35,771 nt of DNA, taken from Candidatus Stoquefichus sp. Lineage in GTDB: Bacteria; Bacillota_I; Bacilli_A; Erysipelotrichales; Coprobacillaceae. The notes below the pieces were generated by a model, which saw only the letters and a list, made by a program, of their open reading frames with translations, ran no database searches and was not told the DNA's origin. Below are positions 2,365 to 33,686 of this stretch, piece by piece (position 1 is the stretch's first letter; every line of letters starts with the position of its first letter). Made by a program: the position numbers and the translations under genes. The stretch is taken from NCBI GenBank assembly GCA_021768625.1, contig JAETUM010000025.1:1-35771 (forward strand), written 5' to 3'.

Positions 2365-2868
2365 TTACTTTCCATATTTTGCAATATCTTGTTCAATATT
2401 ACCCTTATGTTGTAAAGATTTATCTGTATATTGCATAATCTCAAATTTATTACCATCTGGATCATGAATCCACATTTGCCAAGTTTCTGATTGTCCTTTA
2501 TTTGGTTCTATATCAATTTCAATACCTGCTTGAACTAATTCCTCTCTTGCTGCATGAATATCATCAACCATCAATGCAAAATGAGAATACCCTAATCTTG
2601 TGTCTGGGGTTTCTTGTTCTAATTGTCCATCAGCCTTTGGAAATAATTCCAAATATTGACCAGGTGCAAGTTCAATAAAAATATAGGCAATTCCTTTTGG
2701 ATTTGTTTCAGCTCTAGCTGCCCATGCTCCACGATTTGTTTGTCCTTTGTATGCTTCATATCGCGTGATAATTTTAGCTTTTAAACCTAACTTATTTTCA
2801 TAAAAATCTCTCATTTCATCCATTTTATCTGTATAAAATGATAAATGCATAACTTCATTAAATTTCAT
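2365..2868 (-). CDS. VOC (glyoxalase/bleomycin resistance) family protein
   Basis: 167-residue protein with two beta-alpha-beta-beta-beta modules of the vicinal oxygen chelate fold. All four metal-ligand positions are occupied: His8, Glu74 (in YLELF), His96 (in YSHFAL) and Glu143 (in KFEIM). It is therefore probably an active metalloenzyme such as a lyase, isomerase or dioxygenase. The motif HDPDGNKFEIMQY is typical of the second module. It is the last gene of the glycosidase operon, 13 bases after the broken glycosidase gene and just before the operon terminator. Its position suggests a role in carbohydrate or reactive-aldehyde handling, but the substrate is unknown. Confidence 0.85.
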   Translation of the reverse strand: MKFNEVMHLSFYTDKMDEMRDFYENKLGLKAKIITRYEAYKGQTNRGAWAARAETNPKGIAYIFIELAPGQYLELFPKADGQLEQETPDTRLGYSHFALMVDDIHAAREELVQAGIEIDIEPNKGQSETWQMWIHDPDGNKFEIMQYTDKSLQHKGNIEQDIAKYGK

Positions 2869-2881
2869 TAATATTCACTCC

Positions 2882-4336
<1,455 letters not shown>

Positions 4337-4340
4337 TTTT

Positions 4341-5090
4341 TTATTTCTCCTTTTCTTTTAAAATTTCAATAGCTTCCTTTATATTATGAACAATATAATC
4401 TGCTTTTTCCTGTATAATTTGAGGAGATTTTTGAAATGTAAATGATATATCTGCTACCCTTAACATAGGTAAATCATTGTATGAATCACCAATTCCAGCA
4501 ATCTTCTCTAAGCATAATAATTCTTTTAACTTTATAATAGCTTGCCCTTTAGAGCATCCTTTCGCAACAATATCAATAGAATCAACATTTTGAAATGCTT
4601 GCACATCTTGATATCTTTGATTGATTTCTAATGTAATTTCTGTTGCTCTTTCTACTGTACTTTCTATTAATGAAATACTATATATATCTTCATCTCTCAT
4701 TTCTTCTAAAGAATGAATAATAACTTTATCCTCATCATTTTGAATATTTGTACAATAAAAGTTCTTTTGTGATAATGTTTGAACTATTAACTCTGTTTCA
4801 TTTTTATATGTTAAATAAATTTCATTAATAATATCAAAGGGAACTTTCTTTCCATATAGTAATTGATAATCCTTATCTAAAATAGCACCTCCTGTACTCA
4901 CAATAAAGAAATCAGGTTTTAACACTCCTTTTAAAGGCTTCAACAAACCAGAAAATGGTCTACCTGAACAGATTCCAAAAAGATTTCCATCTTGTTGAAA
5001 CTGCTTAATTTCTTGAATATCTTGTTCTTTAAATTGAGAGCCATTTTTAAAGAATAATGTATTATCAAAATCACTGGCAAGAACTTTCAT
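4341..5090 (-). CDS. HAD-superfamily Cof-type sugar-phosphate phosphatase
   Basis: 249-residue cytoplasmic phosphatase. The nucleophile motif DFDNT (Asp7, Asp9) is at the N-terminus, and GIGDSYNDLPML is the C-terminal magnesium motif of the Cof/IIB subgroup; the long cap domain lies between. I start it at the ATG at 5090, with the ribosome site AGAGGAG about 9 bases upstream. An upstream in-frame ATG at 5111 lacks such a site. It lies between two glycosidase genes in one operon, 4 bases before the broken one. The likely role is to remove phosphate from sugar phosphates that build up during glycoside use; the exact substrate is unknown. Confidence 0.88.
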   Translation of the reverse strand: MKVLASDFDNTLFFKNGSQFKEQDIQEIKQFQQDGNLFGICSGRPFSGLLKPLKGVLKPDFFIVSTGGAILDKDYQLLYGKKVPFDIINEIYLTYKNETELIVQTLSQKNFYCTNIQNDEDKVIIHSLEEMRDEDIYSISLIESTVERATEITLEINQRYQDVQAFQNVDSIDIVAKGCSKGQAIIKLKELLCLEKIAGIGDSYNDLPMLRVADISFTFQKSPQIIQEKADYIVHNIKEAIEILKEKEK

Positions 5091-24607: not shown

Positions 24608-24643
24608 TTATATATCCTTTTTCATATGTATATGTGGGCAATA
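24608..24643 (-). pseudogene. Displaced original 3' end of the acetyltransferase gene
   Basis: Read on the minus strand, these bases encode YCPHIHMKKDI and stop (TAA at 24608-24610). The first part is identical to the acetyltransferase end at 33286-33311; only the last codons differ. This is the chromosomal tail left behind by insertion of the satellite. Confidence 0.85.
24618..24643. repeat. attL, left copy of 26-bp attachment core
   Basis: Perfect 26-bp match to 33286-33311 (begins TTTTTCATATGTATATGTGG, ends GCAATA). It marks the left junction of the satellite. Matching stops exactly at both ends. Confidence 0.92.
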
Positions 24644-24757
24644 AACTATTTAAAAATCAAAGGAATTATTTTATATTTTTATGTGTTATCTTACAATTAC
24701 TTTTATATTCTATAACCTTTTAAAGTTAATATATGTTAGTTAATTGTATATACAAAC

Positions 24758-24781
24758 TACCCCAAAAATTACCCCCAAAAA
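24758..24781 (+). repeat. Tandem ACCCC-AAAAA sites near the left end
   Basis: Two tandem copies of a TACCCCAAAAA-like unit, 115 bp inside attL. The same doublet in the same orientation lies at 33177-33198 at the other end, inside the last codons of the integrase gene. Position and symmetry suggest arm-type binding sites of the integrase (inference). Confidence 0.5.
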
Positions 24782-24862
24782 TATATGTGTTATATCAGGA
24801 TAAGACAGTTTATAAATAGACTGTCTTTGTTTATGTCTTAAAATGTGTCGAGTTTTGCTATG

Positions 24863-24944
24863 TTGAATAATTTTATTTTTTGTGTATAATCTATATATAT
24901 ATGGTGGTGGCACTCCGCTTGAGGAGAGTCATCATCATTTTTTT
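24863..24944 (+). ncRNA. Consensus promoter running into a terminator-like hairpin (candidate tiny RNA)
   Basis: TTGAAT (24863-24868), 16 bases, TATAAT (24885-24890) is an excellent sigma-A promoter. From about +5 the sequence folds into a 16-pair stem with one mismatch (24901-24916 with 24923-24938, loop 24917-24922) followed by seven T residues. The whole predicted transcript of about 48 bases is a hairpin, ending against the 3' end of the convergent sigma-like gene. It could be a small RNA, an antisense tail to that gene, or an outward promoter with attenuator. The other 220 bases between attL and here hold only the doublet above and a small stem at 24804-24829. Confidence 0.45.
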
Positions 24945-25287
24945 ATATCTCCAACCTATCTAAACTATCTCTTATACGTCTTTTAACTGTAGTTATCGAA
25001 CAGTTTAATACCTCAGCTATTTCTTCAAGGGAATAACCTAACAGAAACCTATAACCCAGTATAATATCATTACCTATTAGCTTATCTATCTTTAAATACC
25101 ACTCTATAACTCTTGTATGTGCCTCATCTAGTTCTTGTATCTTAGCACCTAATGTTTTATGAACTGTACTTTTCACATGATTGTAATCAATGCTATGTGT
25201 ACTCTCTAGATTGCTTTTGAGTATTTTATATTCTTTTAACGCTCTTTGATACTGGTTTAAATAGGCTTGTTTTTCTTTTCTGTTCAT
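24943..25287 (-). CDS. Sigma-70 region 4-like phage regulator (ArpU/DUF1492-like)
   Basis: 114 residues: N-terminal helical segment (1-75), then an HTH resembling sigma region 4 (GYRFLLGYSLEEIAEVLNCS, TTVKRRIRDSLDRL). Such proteins in Firmicute phages drive late gene expression. It lies downstream of the capsid gene, with its ribosome site (AAAGGAG) just past the capsid terminator, so it is probably expressed by read-through. It may activate the capsid operon, or recruit or disturb helper-phage late transcription; these roles are inference. Confidence 0.65.
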   Translation of the reverse strand: MNRKEKQAYLNQYQRALKEYKILKSNLESTHSIDYNHVKSTVHKTLGAKIQELDEAHTRVIEWYLKIDKLIGNDIILGYRFLLGYSLEEIAEVLNCSITTVKRRIRDSLDRLEI

Positions 25288-25305
25288 GGTTATATGCTCC
25301 TTTAA

Positions 25306-25329
25306 TAAAAAAGGTGAGAATACCTCACC
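25306..25329 (-). terminator. Terminator after the capsid gene
   Basis: GGTGAG (25313-25318) and CTCACC (25324-25329) pair around a 5-base loop. On the minus strand the stem is followed by six T residues. It starts 9 bases past the capsid stop. Confidence 0.75.
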
Positions 25330-25337
25330 CTCTTCTT

Positions 25338-26183
25338 TTATTCTGTTGTTGTAGCCTTGTTTTGTTGATAATAGATTGCATTTTTCTTATTATCTAATAC
25401 AAATGCATCATATACAATTCTACCCTCTACAAGCTCACCACTGATTCCTGGTGGATCTTGATGAGTTCTGTAATCTTCTAGCTTTGTAGGTGCAACTGTA
25501 GCACATGGATGAGCTAACATGAAACCAAAGTCTTCAGGTAATCTCACTGAAGGAATTCTCATAACTAGAGCTCCATCCAAGTTAGCAATAACACCTTTTA
25601 ATCTTAAATCATTACCTATATCTGTTTCCATTGTGATATCTTTACTCTTTTTCATAATTCTATATACGCTTGGAGTTACAACCAACACTCTATTAGTTTC
25701 AGGTACCTCTGCATTGTCTAATGTTTCCGTAGCCTTAGTAATCTCATCATATATATTCTCTGGTGTAAGAGTGATAGCAGTAGGTTTTGTTCCTGCGCCA
25801 TCACACATAACCCCATAAGTATATGTATCAACCTCAGGAATAACAACCTCTCGGTTTTGTCTAGCTAATGCACTTGCACTTGCTAAAGATCCCTGAGTTT
25901 CGTCATTATCCAATTTATCAATAACAAATGTAAATGATCTATCTTTCTTTAGTGTCATTTCTTCCGTTACTCCCTCTAAATCCTTAGGAGTTCCGAAACG
26001 ATTCTTTCCTGTTGTATCATTTCTTGAATAGTCATTCATACTAGCAGTGCTAACCTTGTACACCTTGACAGTATGAGCTCCCATCCAGTCAAAATCTTGA
26101 TTTGTCAATAATGACTTTTTACTTTCTGTAGAAAATTGTTCATCAACATAAGGCAAATATTTTGTAGTTAAATCTGTTGCCAT
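25338..26183 (-). CDS. Phage major capsid protein
   Basis: 281 residues. The opening LTTKYLPYVDEQFSTESK, the TVKVYKVSTASMNDYSR stretch, EEMTLKKDRSFTFVIDKLDNDET and the late RVLVVTPSVYRIM and EGRIVYDAFVLD blocks match major capsid proteins of Firmicute siphophages (HK97-like fold, family level from memory). It forms the head shell. It follows the scaffold gene by 13 bases, the normal head-gene order, but no protease, portal or terminase gene accompanies it. AAAGGA precedes the ATG. Confidence 0.83.
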   Translation of the reverse strand: MATDLTTKYLPYVDEQFSTESKKSLLTNQDFDWMGAHTVKVYKVSTASMNDYSRNDTTGKNRFGTPKDLEGVTEEMTLKKDRSFTFVIDKLDNDETQGSLASASALARQNREVVIPEVDTYTYGVMCDGAGTKPTAITLTPENIYDEITKATETLDNAEVPETNRVLVVTPSVYRIMKKSKDITMETDIGNDLRLKGVIANLDGALVMRIPSVRLPEDFGFMLAHPCATVAPTKLEDYRTHQDPPGISGELVEGRIVYDAFVLDNKKNAIYYQQNKATTTE

Positions 26184-26196
26184 TTATATATCCTTT

Positions 26197-26634
26197 CTAA
26201 GACTTAGGCTTAAAGGCCTCTCTTATAGGATCACTGCCTTTAGAAAATTCATTCTCTCCAGGAGGAGCTCCTATTGGTTGAAAACCTAAATCTTTCTTAT
26301 CTTCTTTCTTTTCTTCTTTTGTTTCGTAAATAGCTTGTAATTGATCTAACTTGCTATTTAGATCTTTTTCATCTGTAAAAGAAATAATGCCTGATAATTC
26401 TTGTGACATTCCTCTTTCACTTAATGCACTTTTAAGGATAAAGGCTTTCTCTCGCTTTTCGAGTGCGCTTAATTTCTCTTGATATTCTGCCTCAAAATCC
26501 TTTGTTGCGCTTTTTCTGTAAGAGGCCAGTCTTTTCTGTACGATTGCACTAACCTCATCAGAAGTATAAGTTTTTTGTTCCTTTACTTCTGTTTCCTCTG
26601 TTTGAGTTGTTTCTGTTTGTTGGTTATTTTCCAT
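26197..26634 (-). CDS. Phage capsid scaffolding protein (DUF4355-like)
   Basis: 145 residues, very rich in Glu and Lys, with a predicted coiled coil at about 45-65 and 80-115 (YTSDEVSAIVQKRLA, DFEAEYQEKLSALEKREKAF) and a Pro/Gly-rich tail. The composition and the position just before the major capsid gene are those of DUF4355/GP20-type scaffolds, which shape the procapsid. In a satellite it could set a smaller shell size (inference). Confidence 0.78.
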   Translation of the reverse strand: MENNQQTETTQTEETEVKEQKTYTSDEVSAIVQKRLASYRKSATKDFEAEYQEKLSALEKREKAFILKSALSERGMSQELSGIISFTDEKDLNSKLDQLQAIYETKEEKKEDKKDLGFQPIGAPPGENEFSKGSDPIREAFKPKS

Positions 26635-26711
26635 TCTTTTACCTTTCTCTGTTTATAGTCCAGTTGACTTATGAGCATGGCTGCCACACCATGAAAGAGA
26701 TTTTATCTATG

Positions 26712-26854
26712 AACTGTAGATAAATAAAAAATGACACAGCAACAACATATTGCACTTTATGAAGTGTTATGTCATTCCCATGTCATATATATGTATCAAA
26801 TATATAACTTCCAAGAGAGTGAATATCTTGGGGTACTTTTATTTACCTACAGTT
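26712..26854 (-). ncRNA. Candidate structured leader RNA of the capsid operon
   Basis: An 18-base inverted repeat (26712-26729 and 26837-26854) closes a 143-base region. The one non-Watson-Crick position is G-U in the minus-strand RNA but A-C in the plus-strand RNA, which points to a minus-strand RNA structure. Inside are further stems: 26811-26816/26826-26831, 26730-26736/26770-26776, and a 5-bp stem within the latter. A TATAAT box (minus, 26855-26860, with TAGTCA 17 bases upstream) abuts the arm, so the transcript may start within it. The scaffold gene begins about 78 bases beyond the 3' arm. Confidence 0.45.
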
Positions 26855-26869
26855 ATTATATCATAATTC

Positions 26870-27084
26870 TTCGCCTTTGACTAGAAATATGTCCAAAAGA
26901 AAAGCATATGAAATTAATCATATACTTTCTATTAAGCATTATGGATTTACTTTTTGTTTATTGAAAATTTCTTAGAAACATTTTATATTAATTCAAAAAA
27001 AACAAACATCTAGACAATAACGCTTTGTGAATATGTCTGGACTCTATGCCCAACATTATTATAACACACTATATATAGAAAATC
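26870..27084. other. Noncoding stretch of the satellite
   Basis: No gene is seen. A minus-strand TATAAT lies at 27058-27063, and an 8-bp stem with one imperfect pair (27010-27017 and 27033-27040) is followed on the minus strand by a run of eight T residues near 26995-27002. This may be another short promoter-hairpin transcript or a terminator. Otherwise AT-rich and featureless. Confidence 0.35.
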
Positions 27085-27105
27085 TTAACATTTCTTAACA
27101 TTTTT
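27084..27105. repeat. 22-bp direct repeat, copy 1
   Basis: CTTAACATTTCTTAACATTT followed by TT. The copy at 27296-27317 is identical. Similarity extends leftwards over a CTATATAT stretch. The two copies bracket the 49-residue gene, and each contains an internal TTAACATTT doublet. Confidence 0.8.
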
Positions 27106-27107
27106 AC

Positions 27108-27132
27108 AAAAAAGGCCACTTAATAGTGGTCC
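27108..27132 (-). terminator. Terminator overlapping the end of the 49-residue gene
   Basis: GGCCACT (27114-27120) pairs with AGTGGTCC (27125-27132) with one bulged base and a TAAT loop. On the minus strand it is followed by six T residues. It ends the early/middle transcript before the noncoding stretch. Confidence 0.65.
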
Positions 27133-27269
27133 TTCATTGTTATATATGCTTTTTTATATTGGCCTTTAGTATTCTTTGATAGCTTTATCTTGTCTGCTTT
27201 GTTTTGGATCAATGAAAGGAACTTCTTAAGTTCCTCATCATGCTCATATGATACTTTTATCTTAATCAT
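27120..27269 (-). CDS. Small satellite protein, 49 residues
   Basis: ATG at 27269 with AGGGGA 5-6 bases upstream, open for 49 codons to TAA at 27120-27122. The protein starts MIKIKVSYEHDEELKKFLSL and ends KKAYITMKDHY; it is charged, with a beta-strand/helix start, and has no membrane segment. I do not recognise a function. Its MIKI start and position match the next small gene upstream. It is bracketed by 22-bp direct repeats and ends inside a terminator stem. Confidence 0.65.
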   Translation of the reverse strand: MIKIKVSYEHDEELKKFLSLIQNKADKIKLSKNTKGQYKKAYITMKDHY

Positions 27270-27295
27270 GTCAATCCCCTATATATGTGAAAAAC

Positions 27296-27317
27296 CTTAA
27301 CATTTCTTAACATTTTT
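27296..27317. repeat. 22-bp direct repeat, copy 2
   Basis: Identical to 27084-27105. Here the repeat forms the last codons and stop of the 54-residue gene (coding KNVKKC). Confidence 0.8.
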
Positions 27318-27461
27318 CTTCTTGAGGTTGCATTTAATATACTGATAAACCAACTTAAATACCTCCTTCACACCATCTTCAGGAGCATAACATACAAGAT
27401 AATGATTTGTATTGGGTTTGTTATAAACAAAGCTAAGAGGGGCTTTCTGTATCTTGATCAT
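27297..27461 (-). CDS. Small satellite protein, 54 residues
   Basis: Start at ATG 27461 with GGGAGG 8 bases upstream; a longer frame from 27491 lacks a ribosome site. The protein runs MIKIQKAPLSFVYNKPNTN to a Lys-rich end KKKNVKKC. It is small and basic, with no recognised domain. It lies between the 120-residue gene and the 49-residue gene in the minus-strand operon. Confidence 0.6.
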   Translation of the reverse strand: MIKIQKAPLSFVYNKPNTNHYLVCYAPEDGVKEVFKLVYQYIKCNLKKKNVKKC

Positions 27462-27566
27462 GAGAAAAACCTCCCTATTCTTCCAATACATATACCCAAA
27501 TGTCTATGTAGACGATCATAAAGTATAAAGCTGCATTTTCCTCTTGTGACTGTGAGATGTCTACTG

Positions 27567-27929
27567 TTAATGATTATCTTCATTATATTGCCCCTCCACA
27601 TTTTCAAGCTCATTTACAAATTCTTTTTCCCACTTCCATAAATCGGCTTCAGTATCAGGAAAACATCCATTTTCTTGATGATACACTTTCATCCATTGAA
27701 AAGTAGCTGACGCATTCCACTTTATCATATCTCTTTCACATTCTCTACCTTTCATTTCTCCAAAATTGAATGCTAACATCATACAAGCGAAAATATCATT
27801 ACTTCCAAAGTGTTCAGGAATAGCTCTAATAACTCTTTGATAGTTTTTATTGTCTGTAAATGTTGTCTTTCCTAATATAGTTAATTGATCATCAACATAA
27901 TATTGATGTATATCTTTTATTATTTTCAC
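27567..27929 (-). CDS. Satellite protein of unknown function, 120 residues, AFNFG motif
   Basis: Starts at GTG 27929, with GAGGAA about 10 bases upstream. Residues about 24-60 (FTDNKNY ... MMLAFNFGEMKGRE) align with the shorter neighbouring protein (FTTNENY ... NVAFNFGYAIGR), so the two are paralogues. The C-terminal half is acidic with several Trp. The AFxxG-x-x-x-GR helix occurs in many small phage proteins without known role. Its leader carries three hairpins with the same loop. Confidence 0.6.
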   Translation of the reverse strand: MKIIKDIHQYYVDDQLTILGKTTFTDNKNYQRVIRAIPEHFGSNDIFACMMLAFNFGEMKGRECERDMIKWNASATFQWMKVYHQENGCFPDTEADLWKWEKEFVNELENVEGQYNEDNH

Positions 27930-27972
27930 TTTTTTATATTCCTCTCTTTCATTTTTCTAAAGAGAATGTTAC

Positions 27973-28075
27973 AATCCTATTGGTAGTATTGGATTATAAC
28001 CTCTCTAAGATATATGTTTTAACTCAATATCGTTGGTAGTGATATAGAGCTATATTTTATGTGTTGGTAGCACGT
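27973..28075. promoter_or_regulatory. Three hairpins with identical TTGGTAG loops
   Basis: TTGGTAG occurs at 27980-27986, 28033-28039 and 28064-28070, each flanked by inverted repeats: 27973-27979/27987-27995 (7 pairs, 2-base bulge), 28023-28031/28041-28049 (8 of 9 pairs), and 28059-28063/28071-28075 (5 pairs with one G-T). On the minus-strand transcript the loops read CUACCAA. They fill the gap before the 120-residue gene and may bind a protein or RNA. Confidence 0.55.
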
Positions 28076-28076
28076 T

Positions 28077-28268
28077 TTATATCGTACTCTTTGTACTTTG
28101 GTTATTTTTTACACTTCTACCTATGGCATACCCGAAATTAAATGCCACATTTAAAGCACTATAATCACAACCATATAACTTCTTTATCTTTAATAAGATA
28201 TCTATATAGTTTTCGTTTGTGGTGAATGGTGCTTTTATGATTTTTGCTATAAACTCATCTTTTTTCAT
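28077..28268 (-). CDS. Small satellite protein, 63 residues, AFNFG motif
   Basis: ATG at 28268 preceded by AAGGTACACCAAT. The protein has FTTNENYIDILLKIKKLYG and NVAFNFGYAIGRSVK, aligning with the 120-residue neighbour. Mostly helical and soluble. Function unknown; it lies 11 bases after the 63-residue coiled-coil gene in the early operon. Confidence 0.6.
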   Translation of the reverse strand: MKKDEFIAKIIKAPFTTNENYIDILLKIKKLYGCDYSALNVAFNFGYAIGRSVKNNQSTKSTI

Positions 28269-28279
28269 ATTGGTGTACC

Positions 28280-28471
28280 TTATTTATATATTCGTATTGT
28301 TTCTTCAATAGACAATATGCTATTATTGATTTCTTTTAACTCAGCAATCAACATTAACATCAATATCTCAAGTCTATCTTGTTTATCATCACTATCTTCT
28401 AGCCATGAAGTTTCATGTTCAAACTGTTTATCAGTTTCTTCAAAATAATCAGGTTTTTTATAATTTATCAT
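28280..28471 (-). CDS. Small acidic coiled-coil protein
   Basis: 63 residues from ATG 28471, with GGAG 9 bases upstream; the ATG at 28480 abuts that site and is less likely. An acidic N-terminal half (FEETDKQFEHETSWLEDSDD) is followed by a heptad-like helix (RLEILMLMLIAELKEINNSI, LSIEETIRIY). Probably an oligomerising accessory protein; no family recognised. It directly follows the origin region on the minus strand. Confidence 0.6.
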   Translation of the reverse strand: MINYKKPDYFEETDKQFEHETSWLEDSDDKQDRLEILMLMLIAELKEINNSILSIEETIRIYK

Positions 28472-28493
28472 GCTTTTCATCTCCTTTTTTAAA

Positions 28494-28692
28494 TTATCAA
28501 GTTTATCATTTTACCTATAGAGAGTGAGAATTTGATAAACTTGTACAAAACCATTGGTATATAATGGTTTACAAAGATTATCAATTGATAATTATGTAAG
28601 TCTAAAAATTATCAATATATATATCAATTTTATCAAGTTGATAATTATGTAAAAGCATTGATATATTCAATATTTTTTATCAAAATTATCAA
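28494..28692. repeat. Iteron-like array, candidate satellite replication origin
   Basis: TTATCAA occurs at 28494, 28578, 28609, 28630, 28677 and 28686, and its inverse TTGATAA at 28532, 28585 and 28638: nine copies in 199 very AT-rich bases. A perfect 16-bp palindrome ATTATCAATTGATAAT lies at 28577-28592, and the 15-mer TTGATAATTATGTAA is repeated at 28585 and 28638 (53-bp period). The array lies directly downstream of the primase-helicase gene, as in satellite islands whose initiator binds iterons beside its own gene. Confidence 0.7.
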
Positions 28693-28695
28693 ATT

Positions 28696-30474
28696 TTAAC
28701 CCTCTTTAGGAACAAGTGATAAAAATGTGATTTTATCTTTACCAAATCCTTTGACTTTTATATCTATGATATTGTCTTTTTTTAAATCCTTTTTAGCTCT
28801 TTCAAGAGTAGCACTTGCATATCCACACGCTTTGGCATACTCTAACAATTCTTTATTTTCCATAGTACTCTCATGTTCTTGTAACTGTTCTAGTATGAAC
28901 TCTTTAGCTTCTTCTTTGGCTCCCTTGCCTTTACGCTCATAAGATTTCTTACTCATAAAGTCCCTATCTTTTTTAGTGGTGAAACCTCTTAATGTCACAA
29001 CTCCATCATCAATGGTAAATAATGAAGTATCTTGAAGTTTAGCAACATTACATTTTTCATGAGATAAATAGCGTATATCATCTTCCCCAGTATGACCTAC
29101 TATAAAGACATTTCTTGCTATATCCCATATATCAGAGCTATCACTGATTCTACCTCTTGCTGATACGTCATTCTTCTTGTTTGTATGACATACTATTAAA
29201 GTTGTTACTCCTAATTCTTCACCAAAACCATTTAAAGGAGCTAGAGTGTTTCTCATTTGATTTCTATAGCCCATATTAACATTATTGGGTAAGAACCCCT
29301 GTAATGGATCAAATACCAATAATACAGGCTTGTGGGTATTAACTAACTCTTTTAAATAAGGACTATTATATTTCACTTCCTGAAACCTCTCATCACTTAA
29401 TTTAATTGTGAATATGTTATTCATATTAGCACCATTGACCCTCAGTCTTTTTTTTAATGTTGTATTCATATCATCTTCACTTGAGAAAAACATCACCTTT
29501 TGAGGTTTTCTTTCTTCAATAAGTGAGTAGTTCTCATCTTCAAAAAATGTATATGTGCCACTGCTTATAGAGGCGACTATATCACACCATATAGTAGTTT
29601 TTCCCACTCCACCATCACCAGCCAGGATAGTTATAGCTCCTTTAGGTATGAAATCACGTATCAGCCATTCAGGCTCTTTTTCCTCAACATCTGCCATTGA
29701 GATCATTTTAGTACTTAGATTTTTAGTATTCTCTTGATATGTACTTGTTCCTTTATCATATCTATCTGTAACACTTTGATAAATAGCCTTAACTTCTTCC
29801 TTTGTAAGTGGTGGATCACATTTAGCTTTGTTCTCTTGCCACAAAGCATTTAATATAGCTTTATCAGCTAGACCTTTAGATTGCAAAGAGCTTGCTAATT
29901 TAAACAACATATCATTTCTTTGACCTTGTGTTATTTTATTTTCCATATGTAAAGGCGTATCACTTGGGGGTCCAACTGGACCTGATAAAAAACCATACAC
30001 AAAGCCATCAGCTTGCACCACTGGATCGTTATTATCCCATTCATAACAACGACCATCTATTTGACTTGGTGGAGCCACTACATAACCGTTATTAGCTCTT
30101 ATATCAATACCAGGATAAATATTAACCCTATTCTTAAAGTCGCCCTCAACGTGATAATATAAGTGATAACCACCACTAGGTGTTTTGACCTTTGCAGTAT
30201 CAGGGAGGCCTACACCATATTCTTTCATTGATTCTAGACCTTTTGCCTCATGCTTAACATCAATATCTATAACTAATATCCCGTCACCTGTAGCAATACC
30301 TATGTTATAGTTTGGGTTGGTATTCCACCATTTTTTTATAGTTACCAAATCAGTTGTAGCCTCATTTTTCCATGATCTTAATACTTGGCCACTTTTACTA
30401 TTTGGTTGCAAAGGAAATACCCTAAGACCAGCTTTGGCATAATTCAAGGCACTTTCTTTTAAACTACGCACCAT
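28696..30474 (-). CDS. Primase-polymerase/helicase fusion (replication initiator)
   Basis: 592 residues from the ATG at 30474 (a second ATG 4 codons earlier and a GTG next to it are alternatives). N-terminal primase-polymerase domain (about 5-165): LRVFPLQ, the acidic LVIDID motif and PSGGYHLYYH. A PriCT-like helical region follows (about 180-235, QGQRNDMLFKLASSL). The C-terminal RepA/AAA_25-type ATPase has Walker A GDGGVGKTT (about 286-294) and Walker B LLVFDPLQ. Such fusions replicate satellites and plasmids. It is preceded by the excisionase-like gene, overlapping it, and followed by the iteron array. Confidence 0.85.
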   Translation of the reverse strand: MVRSLKESALNYAKAGLRVFPLQPNSKSGQVLRSWKNEATTDLVTIKKWWNTNPNYNIGIATGDGILVIDIDVKHEAKGLESMKEYGVGLPDTAKVKTPSGGYHLYYHVEGDFKNRVNIYPGIDIRANNGYVVAPPSQIDGRCYEWDNNDPVVQADGFVYGFLSGPVGPPSDTPLHMENKITQGQRNDMLFKLASSLQSKGLADKAILNALWQENKAKCDPPLTKEEVKAIYQSVTDRYDKGTSTYQENTKNLSTKMISMADVEEKEPEWLIRDFIPKGAITILAGDGGVGKTTIWCDIVASISSGTYTFFEDENYSLIEERKPQKVMFFSSEDDMNTTLKKRLRVNGANMNNIFTIKLSDERFQEVKYNSPYLKELVNTHKPVLLVFDPLQGFLPNNVNMGYRNQMRNTLAPLNGFGEELGVTTLIVCHTNKKNDVSARGRISDSSDIWDIARNVFIVGHTGEDDIRYLSHEKCNVAKLQDTSLFTIDDGVVTLRGFTTKKDRDFMSKKSYERKGKGAKEEAKEFILEQLQEHESTMENKELLEYAKACGYASATLERAKKDLKKDNIIDIKVKGFGKDKITFLSLVPKEG

Positions 30475-30895
30475 TGACCACCTCATAGGCCTTTAATGCC
30501 TTTGCCCTATTACTTATATCAAAACCTAAGTAATCACGCTTAAAACGCTCATATTCTTCTCTTGGTACCATTCTAGATTTACCAGTCTTAATAGCTCTCA
30601 TAATACCAATTTCTAGCCACATACTAACTAATTGTCTTGAACATTTGCAGTCATTTGCTATTTGTTCTACATCTAGCATATCACGATTTATAAGCTCCTG
30701 GACTGTATCCGTTTGGAACTCTTCCCATGTATGCTCAATCTTTCTTAATTCTTCAATTCTTACTAGAATTTCATTCATTCTAGCGTTGATCTTTTCCCAT
30801 TCTTTAGCACTTAATAGATTATCACTATTAGCAAGTCTAGAATATTCACTAGCTAATTGTGTATGCTCAAGAATGATTTTTTCCTTGTCTGTCAT
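30464..30895 (-). CDS. Excisionase/AlpA-like HTH protein
   Basis: 143 residues. An N-terminal coiled coil (about 1-60) is followed by a winged-helix/MerR-like domain (about 72-120: VEQIANDCKCSRQLVSMWLE, then MVPREEYERFKRDY), typical of excisionase or AlpA-type proteins. It may direct excision or activate early genes. Its end overlaps the primase-helicase start by about 11 bases, so the two are co-translated. Confidence 0.65.
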   Translation of the reverse strand: MTDKEKIILEHTQLASEYSRLANSDNLLSAKEWEKINARMNEILVRIEELRKIEHTWEEFQTDTVQELINRDMLDVEQIANDCKCSRQLVSMWLEIGIMRAIKTGKSRMVPREEYERFKRDYLGFDISNRAKALKAYEVVNGA

Positions 30896-30906
30896 ACTTT
30901 TACCCC

Positions 30907-31116
30907 CTATCTTTCGCTATATCCTTGTGACGAGCATTCATTACATAAAAAAGCAGTTCCAACAAAATCACAATCACAATTTACGAGTTCTTTTAACATT
31001 TTTTCATCTAGATGAACTTCTTTGCCACATCTAGGACAAGTGCAATAAAATTCATCTTCATATACATCAATCCTTAATTCTAAAGCGCTGCCATAATCCT
31101 TTTTAATATAAATCAT
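30907..31116 (-). CDS. Small zinc-ribbon protein
   Basis: 69 residues with three Cys pairs (CTCPRCG, CDCD and CNEC), likely binding zinc. An N-terminal beta-rich part (LELRIDVYEDEFYCTC) precedes them. It lies in the early operon between the Cro-like and excisionase-like genes. Function unknown. Confidence 0.7.
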   Translation of the reverse strand: MIYIKKDYGSALELRIDVYEDEFYCTCPRCGKEVHLDEKMLKELVNCDCDFVGTAFLCNECSSQGYSER

Positions 31117-31128
31117 TTTTTTACCCTC

Positions 31129-31332
31129 CTAATCTTTTAATAAATCTTGAACTTTAACATTTAATGCTTTGGCTACTTTGCCAGCTGTACCTGGCTTTAT
31201 TGCTTCGCCTTTCATCATTCTTCTATATGTGCCTGCGAAAATATCAGCTTTTTCACAAAATTCGCCAATAGATAAACTTTGATTAGCCATTGCTAGAAGA
31301 ATTTTGTTTGAATCTAATGTTATACCATTCAT
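31129..31332 (-). CDS. Cro-like XRE-family HTH protein
   Basis: 67 residues from ATG 31332, with GGGAGGTG 8 bases upstream; an in-frame GTG at 31341 overlaps that site. HTH region SIGEFCEKADIFAGTYRRMM with the XRE tail AGKVAKALNVKVQDLLKD. It is the first gene of the early operon, divergent from the repressor, with shared operators between. It probably acts as the switch partner of the repressor. Confidence 0.8.
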   Translation of the reverse strand: MNGITLDSNKILLAMANQSLSIGEFCEKADIFAGTYRRMMKGEAIKPGTAGKVAKALNVKVQDLLKD

Positions 31333-31341
31333 TTGTTTCAC

Positions 31342-31483
31342 CTCCCTAATTGCTATTGACTTAAGTTTTTACTTAAGTTATACTAAGATTAACATAAGTG
31401 ATTAATTATGTCAATGATTAAAAAGATAATTTTATACTTATGTTTATATCGAATTGTGTTATAATCACTTTGAGGTGATATAA
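31342..31483. promoter_or_regulatory. Repressor/Cro divergent switch region
   Basis: Four octamer sites: ACTTAAGT at 31359 and 31371, ACATAAGT at 31392 and its inverse ACTTATGT at 31436. A minus-strand promoter, TTGACA (31409-31414) with TAATCT 17 bases on, has the third site in its spacer. A plus-strand TATAAT (31460-31465) lies before the repressor, with the fourth site near its -35 position. This is a classic lysogenic-type switch layout. Confidence 0.7.
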
Positions 31484-31984
31484 ATGAGTGTAGGTGAAAA
31501 TATAAGAAGAATTAGAAAAGAAAAGAGTTTAACTCAAAAAGAATTAGCTAAAATGTTAGATGTTAGCGAGCCAATGGTAAGCCAGTATGAAAAAAAAGAG
31601 AATTTAAAATTACAAACTATACGCAAAATAGCTCATGCGTTAAATGTTTCTATTAGTGATATTGTTGATGATTGGAGTGCTTTCTCTATTGATGAAATAC
31701 AGGAAGATTTAATCAATCCACAAGAAAAAGAATACTATAAAGAATTAAATAAAAGACAAATCTCTTTAATCTATGATTTAATTGGTACAATCTTTAAAGA
31801 AACCGGCAAATATCCTATCAATCTAAACGATATAGACGGCCTAAACATCTTCATGAATAAAAAGCTTACAGAGTATAAAACTCTAAGTAACGAAGAACTA
31901 AAAGTAATAGAAAAAGATGTACTTAATTATCTTGATTTTTTACTAGACAAGGCACTAAAAAATAAGGAAAGCAAAAAAATGTAG
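31484..31984 (+). CDS. XRE-family satellite repressor (CI/Stl-like)
   Basis: 166 residues. N-terminal XRE HTH (residues 5-60: NIRRIRKEKSLTQKELAKML, SEPMVSQYEKKENLKL), followed by a helical C-terminal domain without an obvious LexA-like peptidase motif. A repressor of this type is usually lifted by an interacting helper-phage protein rather than by RecA, as for Stl in satellite islands. It is divergent from the Cro-like gene with shared operators and lies next to the integrase gene on the same strand. GAGGTG precedes the ATG. Confidence 0.82.
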   Translation: MSVGENIRRIRKEKSLTQKELAKMLDVSEPMVSQYEKKENLKLQTIRKIAHALNVSISDIVDDWSAFSIDEIQEDLINPQEKEYYKELNKRQISLIYDLIGTIFKETGKYPINLNDIDGLNIFMNKKLTEYKTLSNEELKVIEKDVLNYLDFLLDKALKNKESKKM

Positions 31985-31990
31985 TGCCTT
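31949..31990 (+). terminator. Weak stem-loop at the repressor 3' end
   Basis: 9-bp perfect stem (31949-31957 and 31982-31990) with a 24-base A-rich loop, followed by TCCCTTTTC. It could be a weak terminator between repressor and integrase. Confidence 0.35.
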
Positions 31991-32081
31991 TCCCTTTTCA
32001 TTGGACTAAAAATTTCTTGCACCTCAAAACGTCCTATATAACACATATAAACAACATTTTATATAGGAGGGATAAAACAAC

Positions 32082-33206
32082 ATGAGCATTACAAAAAGAG
32101 AATTAAAGAATGGTAAAATCGTATATGACAACGCATTTATGTATAAGGGTATACGATATAAGAAAAGAGGTTTTAAATCAAAAGGAGAAGCCGAAAACTG
32201 GGAAATTACAATCAAATATGAAGTGAATAAAAATGGATCATATTTTCAACCATGCGAGAAGAGATTTTTTGAAGTATATAAGGAGTTCTTCAGTATTCAA
32301 AAAGACAAGATGGCCTTAAATACAATTAGTTCATACAATACAGGTATACACCATATTAAGAAAAATAAAGTGTATAAAATGAAAATATTAGATATTAATT
32401 ATTCTATCTTACAAAGTTTCTTTAATGAATTAGCAAAGGATCATAGTAAGAGTTCATGTGAACAGGTCAAGAAAGTATTCAATGCTACTTTTACACATGC
32501 CATTAAAAATGGATACATGTCTTTCAACCCTATGCAATATGTGAAAATCAATGTAAAGAAGAACAACAAAGAAAAAAGAATAATCACAAATCAAGAGTTC
32601 ATCAAAATATGCAATTATTTCTTATCAGACAATACTTTTGAACACAAGAGTATATATATAGCCTTATGTATTGGATATTACACTGGAGCAAGAATAAGCG
32701 AGGTTATGGCATTGACAAAAAATGATATTGATTTTGAACATCATACAATCAGCTTTAACAAAAGACTAGAATACAGGGTTAAAAAAGAATATCTATACAT
32801 ATCTACAATGAAAACTCAAAATTCTTATGCTACATTACCACTTGCTAAACCAATTGAAAATCTATTAGAGGAGTGGTTTGAGGTTAATCCTTATGAAAAT
32901 ATAGTGTGCTTTGAAGATGGCAGCTATCCATCATATAACTATATTCAAAAGCATATCAAATCGGCAAGCAAAGAACTAGGTATACCATTTCATTTCCATA
33001 TGTTAAGACATTTATATGCTACAAATCTTGTAAAGAACAATGTCAATATAAGTGTTGCTAAAAAATTGCTAAGACACGCAAAGGTTGAAACAACTCTAGA
33101 CATTTATACACACACTAATTTTAGTGAAGAACAAAAAGCATTAGAAAGCGTATTTTCTAACAATTTGAATGATAATTACCCCAAAATTACCCCAAAAGTT
33201 AATTAA
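32082..33206 (+). CDS. int: Tyrosine-recombinase integrase
   Basis: 374 residues. An N-terminal AP2-like arm-binding region (about 1-60) and SAM-like core-binding domain (about 65-160) precede the catalytic domain with Arg in YYTGARISEVMAL, HMLRH, RHAKVETTL and the likely nucleophile Tyr in DIYTHT. It recombines attP with the 26-bp attB in the acetyltransferase gene. AGGAGG precedes the ATG. Its last codons contain the ACCCCAAAA doublet, and it ends 79 bases before attR, the normal place for an integrase. Confidence 0.93.
   Translation: MSITKRELKNGKIVYDNAFMYKGIRYKKRGFKSKGEAENWEITIKYEVNKNGSYFQPCEKRFFEVYKEFFSIQKDKMALNTISSYNTGIHHIKKNKVYKMKILDINYSILQSFFNELAKDHSKSSCEQVKKVFNATFTHAIKNGYMSFNPMQYVKINVKKNNKEKRIITNQEFIKICNYFLSDNTFEHKSIYIALCIGYYTGARISEVMALTKNDIDFEHHTISFNKRLEYRVKKEYLYISTMKTQNSYATLPLAKPIENLLEEWFEVNPYENIVCFEDGSYPSYNYIQKHIKSASKELGIPFHFHMLRHLYATNLVKNNVNISVAKKLLRHAKVETTLDIYTHTNFSEEQKALESVFSNNLNDNYPKITPKVN
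33177..33198 (+). repeat. Tandem ACCCCAAAA sites near the right end
   Basis: TACCCCAAAAT followed by TACCCCAAAAG within the integrase 3' end, same orientation as the left-end doublet. Candidate integrase arm sites. Confidence 0.5.
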
Positions 33207-33272
33207 AACACTACTTATCTAATGCTATTGTTTTAATTTATATTGATAAAATCAATATTTTTTCAATTTCAA

Positions 33273-33686
33273 CTATTCCAATATTTTTTTCATATGTATA
33301 TGTGGGCAATACTCATCTAAATATTCATCTCCATAAGTTTGATATCCATTTTTTAAATAAAACTGAGATGCTCTTACTTGTGCAGATAATACAATTTGAC
33401 TATACCCTAATTCTTTTGCTTTTTCTTCAAGGCATTTAAGAATATAACTCCCCATGTGCAAATGTCTATATTCTTTTAATACTGCTATTCTTCCTAAAAC
33501 AATTGTGTTATTCTCTTCAATCATCCTTGCACATCCTATAGGTTTATTCTCTTTAAAGGCAACAAGATGAATACAAGTTTCATCTTGTTTGTCAAATTCA
33601 TTTTTAAAGCCTTGCTCTTCTACAAACACTTTTTCTCTTATCATTTTTGCTTCCTGTGGTAATGTCTTATAAAATTGATAGTTCAT
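33273..33686 (-). CDS. GNAT-family N-acetyltransferase, target of satellite insertion
   Basis: 137 residues, an acetyl-CoA-dependent acetyltransferase of the small YjcF/ElaA-like type: VLGRIAVLKEYRHLHMGSYI is the acetyl-CoA loop, and AQVRASQFYLKNGYQTYG the end region. The final four codons come from the satellite: the last residues here are CPHIHMKKILE, whereas the displaced chromosomal tail reads CPHIHMKKDI. The protein therefore stays full length. Its start overlaps the end of the HD phosphohydrolase gene by 20 bases. Confidence 0.87.
   Translation of the reverse strand: MNYQFYKTLPQEAKMIREKVFVEEQGFKNEFDKQDETCIHLVAFKENKPIGCARMIEENNTIVLGRIAVLKEYRHLHMGSYILKCLEEKAKELGYSQIVLSAQVRASQFYLKNGYQTYGDEYLDEYCPHIHMKKILE
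33286..33311. repeat. attR, right copy of 26-bp attachment core
   Basis: Perfect match to 24618-24643. It lies in the coding end of the acetyltransferase gene, 80 bases past the integrase stop. Confidence 0.92.

Follow-up and report, generated by a model that had tools for sequence, protein, structure and literature searches.

Organization and integration site of the element

Positions 24618-33311 of the window (the whole 35,771-nt stretch of Candidatus Stoquefichus sp. DNA analysed here) hold an integrated element that measures 8,668 bp from one att copy to the other and is inserted at the 3' end of a gene for an acetyltransferase (33273-33686, minus strand). A repeat search located an exact 26-bp direct repeat, TTTTTCATATGTATATGTGGGCAATA, at both ends, with one copy at the far end beside the late genes (24618-24643) and the other within the acetyltransferase 3' end (33286-33311). 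Rejoining the flanks in silico to reconstruct the empty site gave an acetyltransferase ending in ...CPHIHMKKDI, in agreement with orthologues of related genomes that carry no insertion and end in ...MKKDI or ...MKKDIE. A tyrosine integrase (32082-33206, plus strand; Pfam Phage_integrase 1e-25, phrog_1 1e-63) lies at one end of this discrete, att-flanked island at a specific site, as is characteristic of PICIs, and a repeat (D19) at 24755-24780, ACCCCAAAAATTACCCC, and again at 33179-33197 may supply the arm sites of the integrase.

The early region is likewise organized as in PICIs, with a repressor, a divergent early operon, a primase and a putative origin 3' of the replication gene. A CI-like repressor (31484-31984, plus strand; Pfam HTH_3 5e-15) faces minus-strand genes for a Cro-like regulator (31129-31341; phrog_4 6e-6), a small zinc-ribbon-like early protein (30907-31116; phrog_21057 1.5e-14), a 143-aa early protein with no assigned function and no Pfam or PHROG match (30464-30895), and a prim-pol/AAA helicase replication protein (28696-30486; Pfam Prim-Pol 2e-36, AAA_25 3e-26, PriCT_1 2e-8). 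The putative origin, 3' of the primase at 28494-28692, is an iteron cluster with nine copies of TTATCAA/TTGATAA, compared with a mean of 0.17 and a maximum of 3 in 2,000 mononucleotide shuffles of the same segment. At the opposite end, a sigma-70 region 4/ArpU-like regulator (24943-25287, minus strand; Pfam Sigma70_r4 3e-8, phrog_36 3e-6) is a candidate late activator. The initial annotation had described an 8.7-kb element with an integrase, a repressor, a divergent early operon, a primase-helicase and an iteron-like origin; the Pfam and PHROG matches bear out the genes and the shuffles bear out the iterons, with the origin function itself putative.

A capsid gene pair without packaging or tail genes

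The late region encodes a 281-aa HK97-fold major capsid protein (MCP; 25338-26183, minus strand), which matched phrog_422 'major head protein' at 1e-61 in a profile search. Its AlphaFold2 model (pLDDT 85) covers the complete HK97 fold and aligned with phage capsid proteins over nearly the full chain (Foldseek 4e-13; Z 17.9 to the phage Che8 capsid). Directly upstream lies the gene for a 145-aa capsid scaffold protein (26197-26634, minus strand), modelled with a long N-terminal and a short C-terminal helix. The matches of this sequence by itself were weak (phrog_172 1e-3; Pfam Gp46-type scaffold 0.02), and a PDB sequence search with a scaffold profile returned only repeat proteins, judged to be noise. 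The assignment draws as well on position and conservation: an open reading frame of at least 90 aa lies immediately 5' of the MCP gene in 100 of 104 relatives, the scaffold family occurs in 45/45 complete elements, and the scaffold alignment has a conserved C-terminal motif (IRKAMGL or AFKPK) that is absent from most of the phage scaffolds sampled. Both genes had been proposed as head genes from the sequence, and both assignments hold.

Further upstream, a 49-aa signature protein (27120-27269, minus strand) has homologues just upstream of the scaffold gene at 76 of 105 loci; it has no assigned function and no Pfam or PHROG match, and neither it nor a 70-aa protein gave a convincing family match. 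A copy of a 10-bp direct-repeat motif, AAATGTTAAGAAATGTTAAG, lies upstream of the scaffold-MCP operon (27080-27103, minus strand; one mismatch to the 24-mer), and a second copy of the 24-bp motif (27292-27315, minus strand) recurs without mismatch in C46 and C124, two prophage-like contigs of this genome. The 2.92-Mb genome has four sites of the 24-bp motif, two in the satellite and two in the prophage-like contigs. Tandem 10-bp repeats also lie upstream of the scaffold gene in some relatives (L105, L012 and L048); we attach no significance to them.

Among the ten element proteins scanned against Pfam and PHROG, none matched a terminase, portal, protease, tail or lysis family, as the initial annotation had stated; the sole exception, a match of the repressor HTH to a small-terminase profile (7e-4), is at chance level. 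Neither a large terminase nor a portal was detected in any of 45 complete relatives. Some family members have one additional head or tail gene, and the optional helper-type genes seen in relatives comprise a head-tail adaptor, a neck protein, a minor head protein, a tape measure and a small terminase, which might fit a foreign shell to the parts of the helper.

A family of related satellites

Genome contigs contained 134 relatives of the window MCP, nearly all in Clostridia and Erysipelotrichia, and the 80 that were retrieved are 64-74% identical to it across bacterial orders. Complete relatives (n = 45) span 7.3-9.6 kb and all carry both scaffold and MCP, in a collection assembled through the MCP, from which MCP-less members of the family would escape. 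The 37 att-bounded relatives have a median size of 8,653 bp. Eight further contigs have terminal repeats (28-124 bp) that mark them as circular, and another contig is self-repeating with a period of 8,513 bp. Relatives occupy many att sites with the same layout and intact reading frames. The element belongs to a large satellite family of Clostridia and Erysipelotrichia, with more than 100 relatives in gut Firmicutes. Commensal isolates with a member include Faecalicoccus pleomorphus DSM 20574 and Clostridium fessum SNUG30386. Within the GTDB phylum of the window genome, one of 392 genomes had it, namely the window's own.

Compared with prophage MCPs from the same genome and from related ones, the window MCP is only 27-31% identical, and in a quick tree the satellite MCPs form a group apart from those of phages. 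Judged by a dN/dS of 0.05-0.23, the MCP is under purifying selection. A satellite that encodes a scaffold and an MCP of its own but no packaging or tail genes, as first proposed from this one locus, has strong support, and the arrangement is repeated in more than 100 relatives. Two outcomes named beforehand as counting against that proposal were that the two proteins were not head proteins and that the element was a deletion derivative of a prophage; neither was found.

Candidate helpers

One relative (L011) interrupts a prophage MCP gene near codon ~88, and joining its flanks restores a 296-aa prophage MCP that is 46% identical to the MCP of C50, a prophage of the same genome as the window. 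A C50-type portal was present in only 2 of the 20 satellite-bearing genomes or records tried; a single helper type for all members is therefore unsupported and helpers must be diverse, which poses the question of one conserved shell against many portals. The search for a helper through DNA shared with whole prophages gave short matches only, and of these the 24-bp motif proved useful.

A proposed satellite-built shell on a helper portal

We consider it somewhat probable that the element is a PICI-like satellite that makes its own shell and borrows the portal, motor and tail of a helper. Excision and replication would rely on the integrase, primase and iterons of the element itself, and an active helper phage would lead to expression of the satellite scaffold and MCP. 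Satellite subunits would then form a shell around satellite DNA on the helper portal, with portal, terminase, connectors and tail contributed by the helper; helper dependence, a satellite-built shell and its size are what we infer from these genes. The chances are about even for the fuller version, in which the satellite's scaffold and MCP make the whole shell on a portal of foreign origin, the family is widespread in gut Firmicutes, and single adaptor, neck or tape-measure genes match different helpers.

The main rival to a satellite-built shell is redirection of the kind described for SaPIbov5 Ccm, in which the satellite MCP would co-assemble with the helper MCP, for example as pentamers, into a mixed shell; the satellite scaffold would compete with the helper scaffold to give small helper shells, and interference would be the main effect. 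We regard this as possible, though doubtful. An MCP homologue acting in this way is a published precedent, helper-type and satellite MCPs have a common fold at 25-31% identity, and small genomes suit small capsids. The divergence of the MCP is also compatible with a mixed shell, because Ccm, only 24% identical to the helper capsid protein, still co-assembles with it (PMC8569155). Nonetheless, every complete element here has a scaffold, whereas phi12 and SaPIbov5 have no separate one (PMC8569155), and the MCP model has a complete HK97 fold. Furthermore, candidate helpers have widely different MCPs but the satellite MCP is strongly conserved, a pattern that suits self-assembly more than adaptation to each helper.

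It is unlikely that the capsid pair is kept but unneeded for transfer, with the DNA travelling in ordinary helper capsids as for EcCICFT073 and the pair used for interference or immunity, or to back up a helper gene that has been interrupted. Such dispensability has been reported, since helper-assisted transfer of Gram-negative PICIs is stated not to need the capsid gene (PMC10111431), and packaged DNA was phage-sized in a lambda/EcCICFT073 test (PMC6092414). However, the pair takes up ~1.3 of 8.7 kb and is kept in every complete element despite this cost, among members sampled through the MCP, and dN/dS of the MCP reaches as low as 0.05. The narrow range of element sizes also stands against an unneeded pair, and suggests a physical size limit. 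A decayed prophage that lost its packaging and tail genes could leave capsid genes behind as well, but this is very improbable and was rejected given conservation, sizes and selection: more than 100 relatives share the layout at many att sites and vary little in size, their reading frames are intact, selection is purifying, circular copies exist, and broken genes or irregular gene loss were not seen among them.

Relation to known satellites

The initial annotation had held that known satellites either redirect helper capsids or carry a larger head and packaging set. This stands for P4 Sid, SaPI Cpm and cf-PICIs, but the contrast needs correction because capsid genes without the full set are already published, in SaPIbov5 (Ccm), in 21 of 29 reference Gram-negative PICIs and in the helper-embedded 11capE. 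Cos-type SaPIs with Ccm, SaPIbov5 among them, are, like the present element, integrated satellites with an MCP homologue; however, Ccm acts together with the helper capsid protein, forms no shells alone and has a helper lacking a separate scaffold (PMC8569155), whereas here the capsid gene never stands without a partner, scaffold and MCP being constant companions (45/45 complete elements). Gram-negative and helper-embedded PICIs are also small satellites in which a capsid gene is frequent. 11capE lies within the capsid gene of its helper, and L011 is similarly placed within a prophage MCP gene, unlike the window element in its acetyltransferase gene. The Gram-negative PICIs differ in hosts and gene sets (AlpA, Bro genes), and their capsid gene is optional and dispensable (PMC10111431), and we found no mention there of a scaffold-plus-MCP rule; here the pair occurs in 45/45 complete elements, themselves found through the MCP.

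Like the cf-PICIs, whose shells are completed with helper tails, the element has its own MCP and would supply a satellite-encoded shell. However, cf-PICIs carry a portal, protease, connectors, both terminase subunits and HNH, according to the summary in PMC10690885, whereas 0/45 complete elements here had a portal or large terminase. The Streptomyces satellites MulchRoom and MiniFlayer also encode an MCP and a scaffold, but have in addition a portal, both terminase subunits and an adaptor, and no primase (PMC10690885). P4 Sid, SaPI CpmAB, Rcm and PLE TcaP are satellite proteins that act on capsid size; they remodel the helper MCP and supply no shell protein (PMC12409344). None of the satellites that we found described in the open-licence literature exchanges the shell alone, and we found no description of phage satellites in these abundant gut hosts in the open-licence PMC literature.

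If the satellite-built shell is real, this family would stand midway between satellites that remodel the helper shell and cf-PICIs that encode a whole head. It would also allow testing of whether a portal nucleates a shell of distantly related subunits, a question that bears on how phage head assembly starts. The separate lineage of satellite MCPs provides a marker for finding such satellites.

The capsid gene pair and its element

The element (window 24618-33311) is bordered on both sides by an exact 26-bp repeat, and its integrase end lies within the 3' portion of a gene for an acetyltransferase that 38/43 genomes of the host's bacterial family possess. When the flanks are joined in silico, the acetyltransferase C-terminus becomes MKKDI, resembling uninterrupted orthologues. 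From this end, an integrase and a CI repressor are followed on the opposite strand by Cro, a zinc-ribbon-like protein, a 143-aa protein and a prim-pol/helicase, and beyond these by an iteron cluster, small genes, the scaffold, the major capsid protein (MCP) and a sigma-region-4 protein.

The scaffold and MCP of this element are a genuine capsid pair, as the initial annotation had proposed. The MCP (25338-26183, minus strand) was assigned to phrog_422, and its AlphaFold2 model (pLDDT 85) has a phage capsid fold, matching the capsid protein of Mycobacterium phage Che8 (Foldseek 4e-13; Z 17.9 over 245 residues) and the solved shell protein of EcCI2, a capsid-forming PICI (cf-PICI; Z 15.3). The family search alone gave weak support for the scaffold (26197-26634, minus strand). 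In 100/104 relatives, however, the MCP gene immediately follows an ORF of 90 aa or longer, and the predicted shape, one long helix and one short C-terminal helix, is that expected of a capsid scaffold. Pairwise dN/dS ranged from 0.05 to 0.23 for MCP; scaffold values ran from about 0.06 to 0.6.

Directly 5' of the scaffold (27120-27269) lies a gene for a ~50-aa protein (MIKIKVSYERPEEL...) with homologues in 76/105 loci and no convincing match in Pfam and PHROG searches; among the phage-type contigs searched, it turned up in L116 alone, and the family could serve as a marker for satellites. A conserved ~70-aa protein (KRLKMTTSREVRRTVNRVANMLL...; locus L016, 6983-7207), encoded 3' of MCP, has homologues in 21/45 complete elements and likewise no convincing match in a family search.

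A family of related satellites

Scanning with the MCP returned 134 relatives on genome contigs, the best 80 of the 134 at 64-74% identity, and 52 loci on viral contigs, about half at 59% identity or more. Most hosts belong to the Lachnospiraceae or Oscillospiraceae, and other Clostridia and a small number of Erysipelotrichaceae also occur; one genome, Clostridiales bacterium VE202-21, holds two distinct members (L066 and L091). The 37 elements bounded by att repeats, some just 14-16 bp and taken as candidate borders, span 7.3-9.6 kb (median 8,653 bp). Eight viral contigs of 7.7-9.6 kb carry terminal repeats of 28-124 bp (the weakest case, L020, 28 bp), and a ninth is self-repeating with a period of 8,513. 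The integrase follows MCP in L020, L105, L112, L113 and L115, and MCP is divided between the contig ends in L020 and L021, as expected if circles had been opened elsewhere.

All 45 complete elements carry the scaffold; all carry MCP as well, but MCP was the selection criterion. CI, Cro and a tyrosine integrase were each found in 44/45. The element without a tyrosine integrase, circular L115, encodes a 525-aa serine recombinase candidate (2793-4370), by which it probably integrates instead. Searches with six reference sequences each, which a highly divergent version could escape, detected large terminase and portal in 0/45. Apart from a truncated minor head protein and a tape-measure protein, the scanned element proteins long enough for either were replication proteins, and the remaining proteins of such length group with integrases and primases.

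Certain members bear a late gene that looks like one acquired from a helper: a head-tail adaptor (phrog_615; L010, L033, L019), a neck protein (phrog_222; L047), a minor head protein (phrog_115; L024), a tape measure (L019, L020) or a small terminase (L015), L015 and L019 being incomplete elements. The L024 genome also encodes a prophage portal of the type found in the L011 prophage and in C50, a prophage of the window's own genome. Tape measure genes on satellite-type contigs (L020 652-2430; L019 3516-5327; L103 about 3870-4706) could allow satellites to set tail length.

Links to helper phages

On L011 (2832-13211), a satellite interrupts a Gram-positive prophage's MCP gene, as the E. coli helper-embedded PICI 11capE does in its helper, and joining its flanks at ATGGACATT restores an intact 296-aa prophage MCP. 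Since the head and tail genes of C50 are of the same kind (MCP 46%, minor head 44% and tape measure 40% identical to their L011 counterparts), C50 is a candidate helper of the window element. The genome holds four copies of a 24-bp motif, AAATGTTAAGAAATGTTAAGGTTT. The satellite has two of them, one differing at a single position, and contigs C46 and C124, which both bear phage early genes, have one apiece; a reversed-pattern control gave zero sites in the genome. We infer that one regulator may control all of these sites.

In a quick tree, which does not fix exactly where the satellite group is rooted, 22 phage MCPs form a single branch (support 97) with the 102 satellite MCPs together outside it, and the satellite and phage labels require two changes versus 23 in shuffles. 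The window MCP is sister to that of L030, from another Erysipelotrichaceae genome (support 91). On phage contig L114 (5012-12860), a satellite-type MCP (59% identical) is flanked by large terminase and portal genes, with a putative scaffold and a second putative major capsid gene downstream; the satellite-type copy could have been captured from a satellite, could act as a decoy or could stem from faulty assembly.

Implications for capsid formation

This kind of satellite is known: PICIs with a capsid gene and helper-embedded PICIs (PMC10111431, PMC6092414), cf-PICIs (as summarised in PMC10690885 and PMC12409344) and the SaPIbov5 capsid-protein homologue Ccm (PMC8569155) have been described. 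In the open-licence literature we found no paper on this family, on satellites of these hosts, or on a constant scaffold and MCP pair without the remaining head genes.

The main rival explanation is mixed assembly, in which the satellite MCP would co-assemble with the helper capsid protein; Ccm shares just 24% identity with the helper protein and still makes the pentamers of helper shells (PMC8569155). The scaffold-MCP pair is conserved, strongly constrained and diverged from every sampled helper, which suggests a shell consisting of satellite subunits. Under such self-assembly, satellite scaffold and MCP would build the shell upon a helper portal and the helper terminase would fill it; if each particle takes up a single genome, its 7.3-9.6 kb of DNA would need a small shell.
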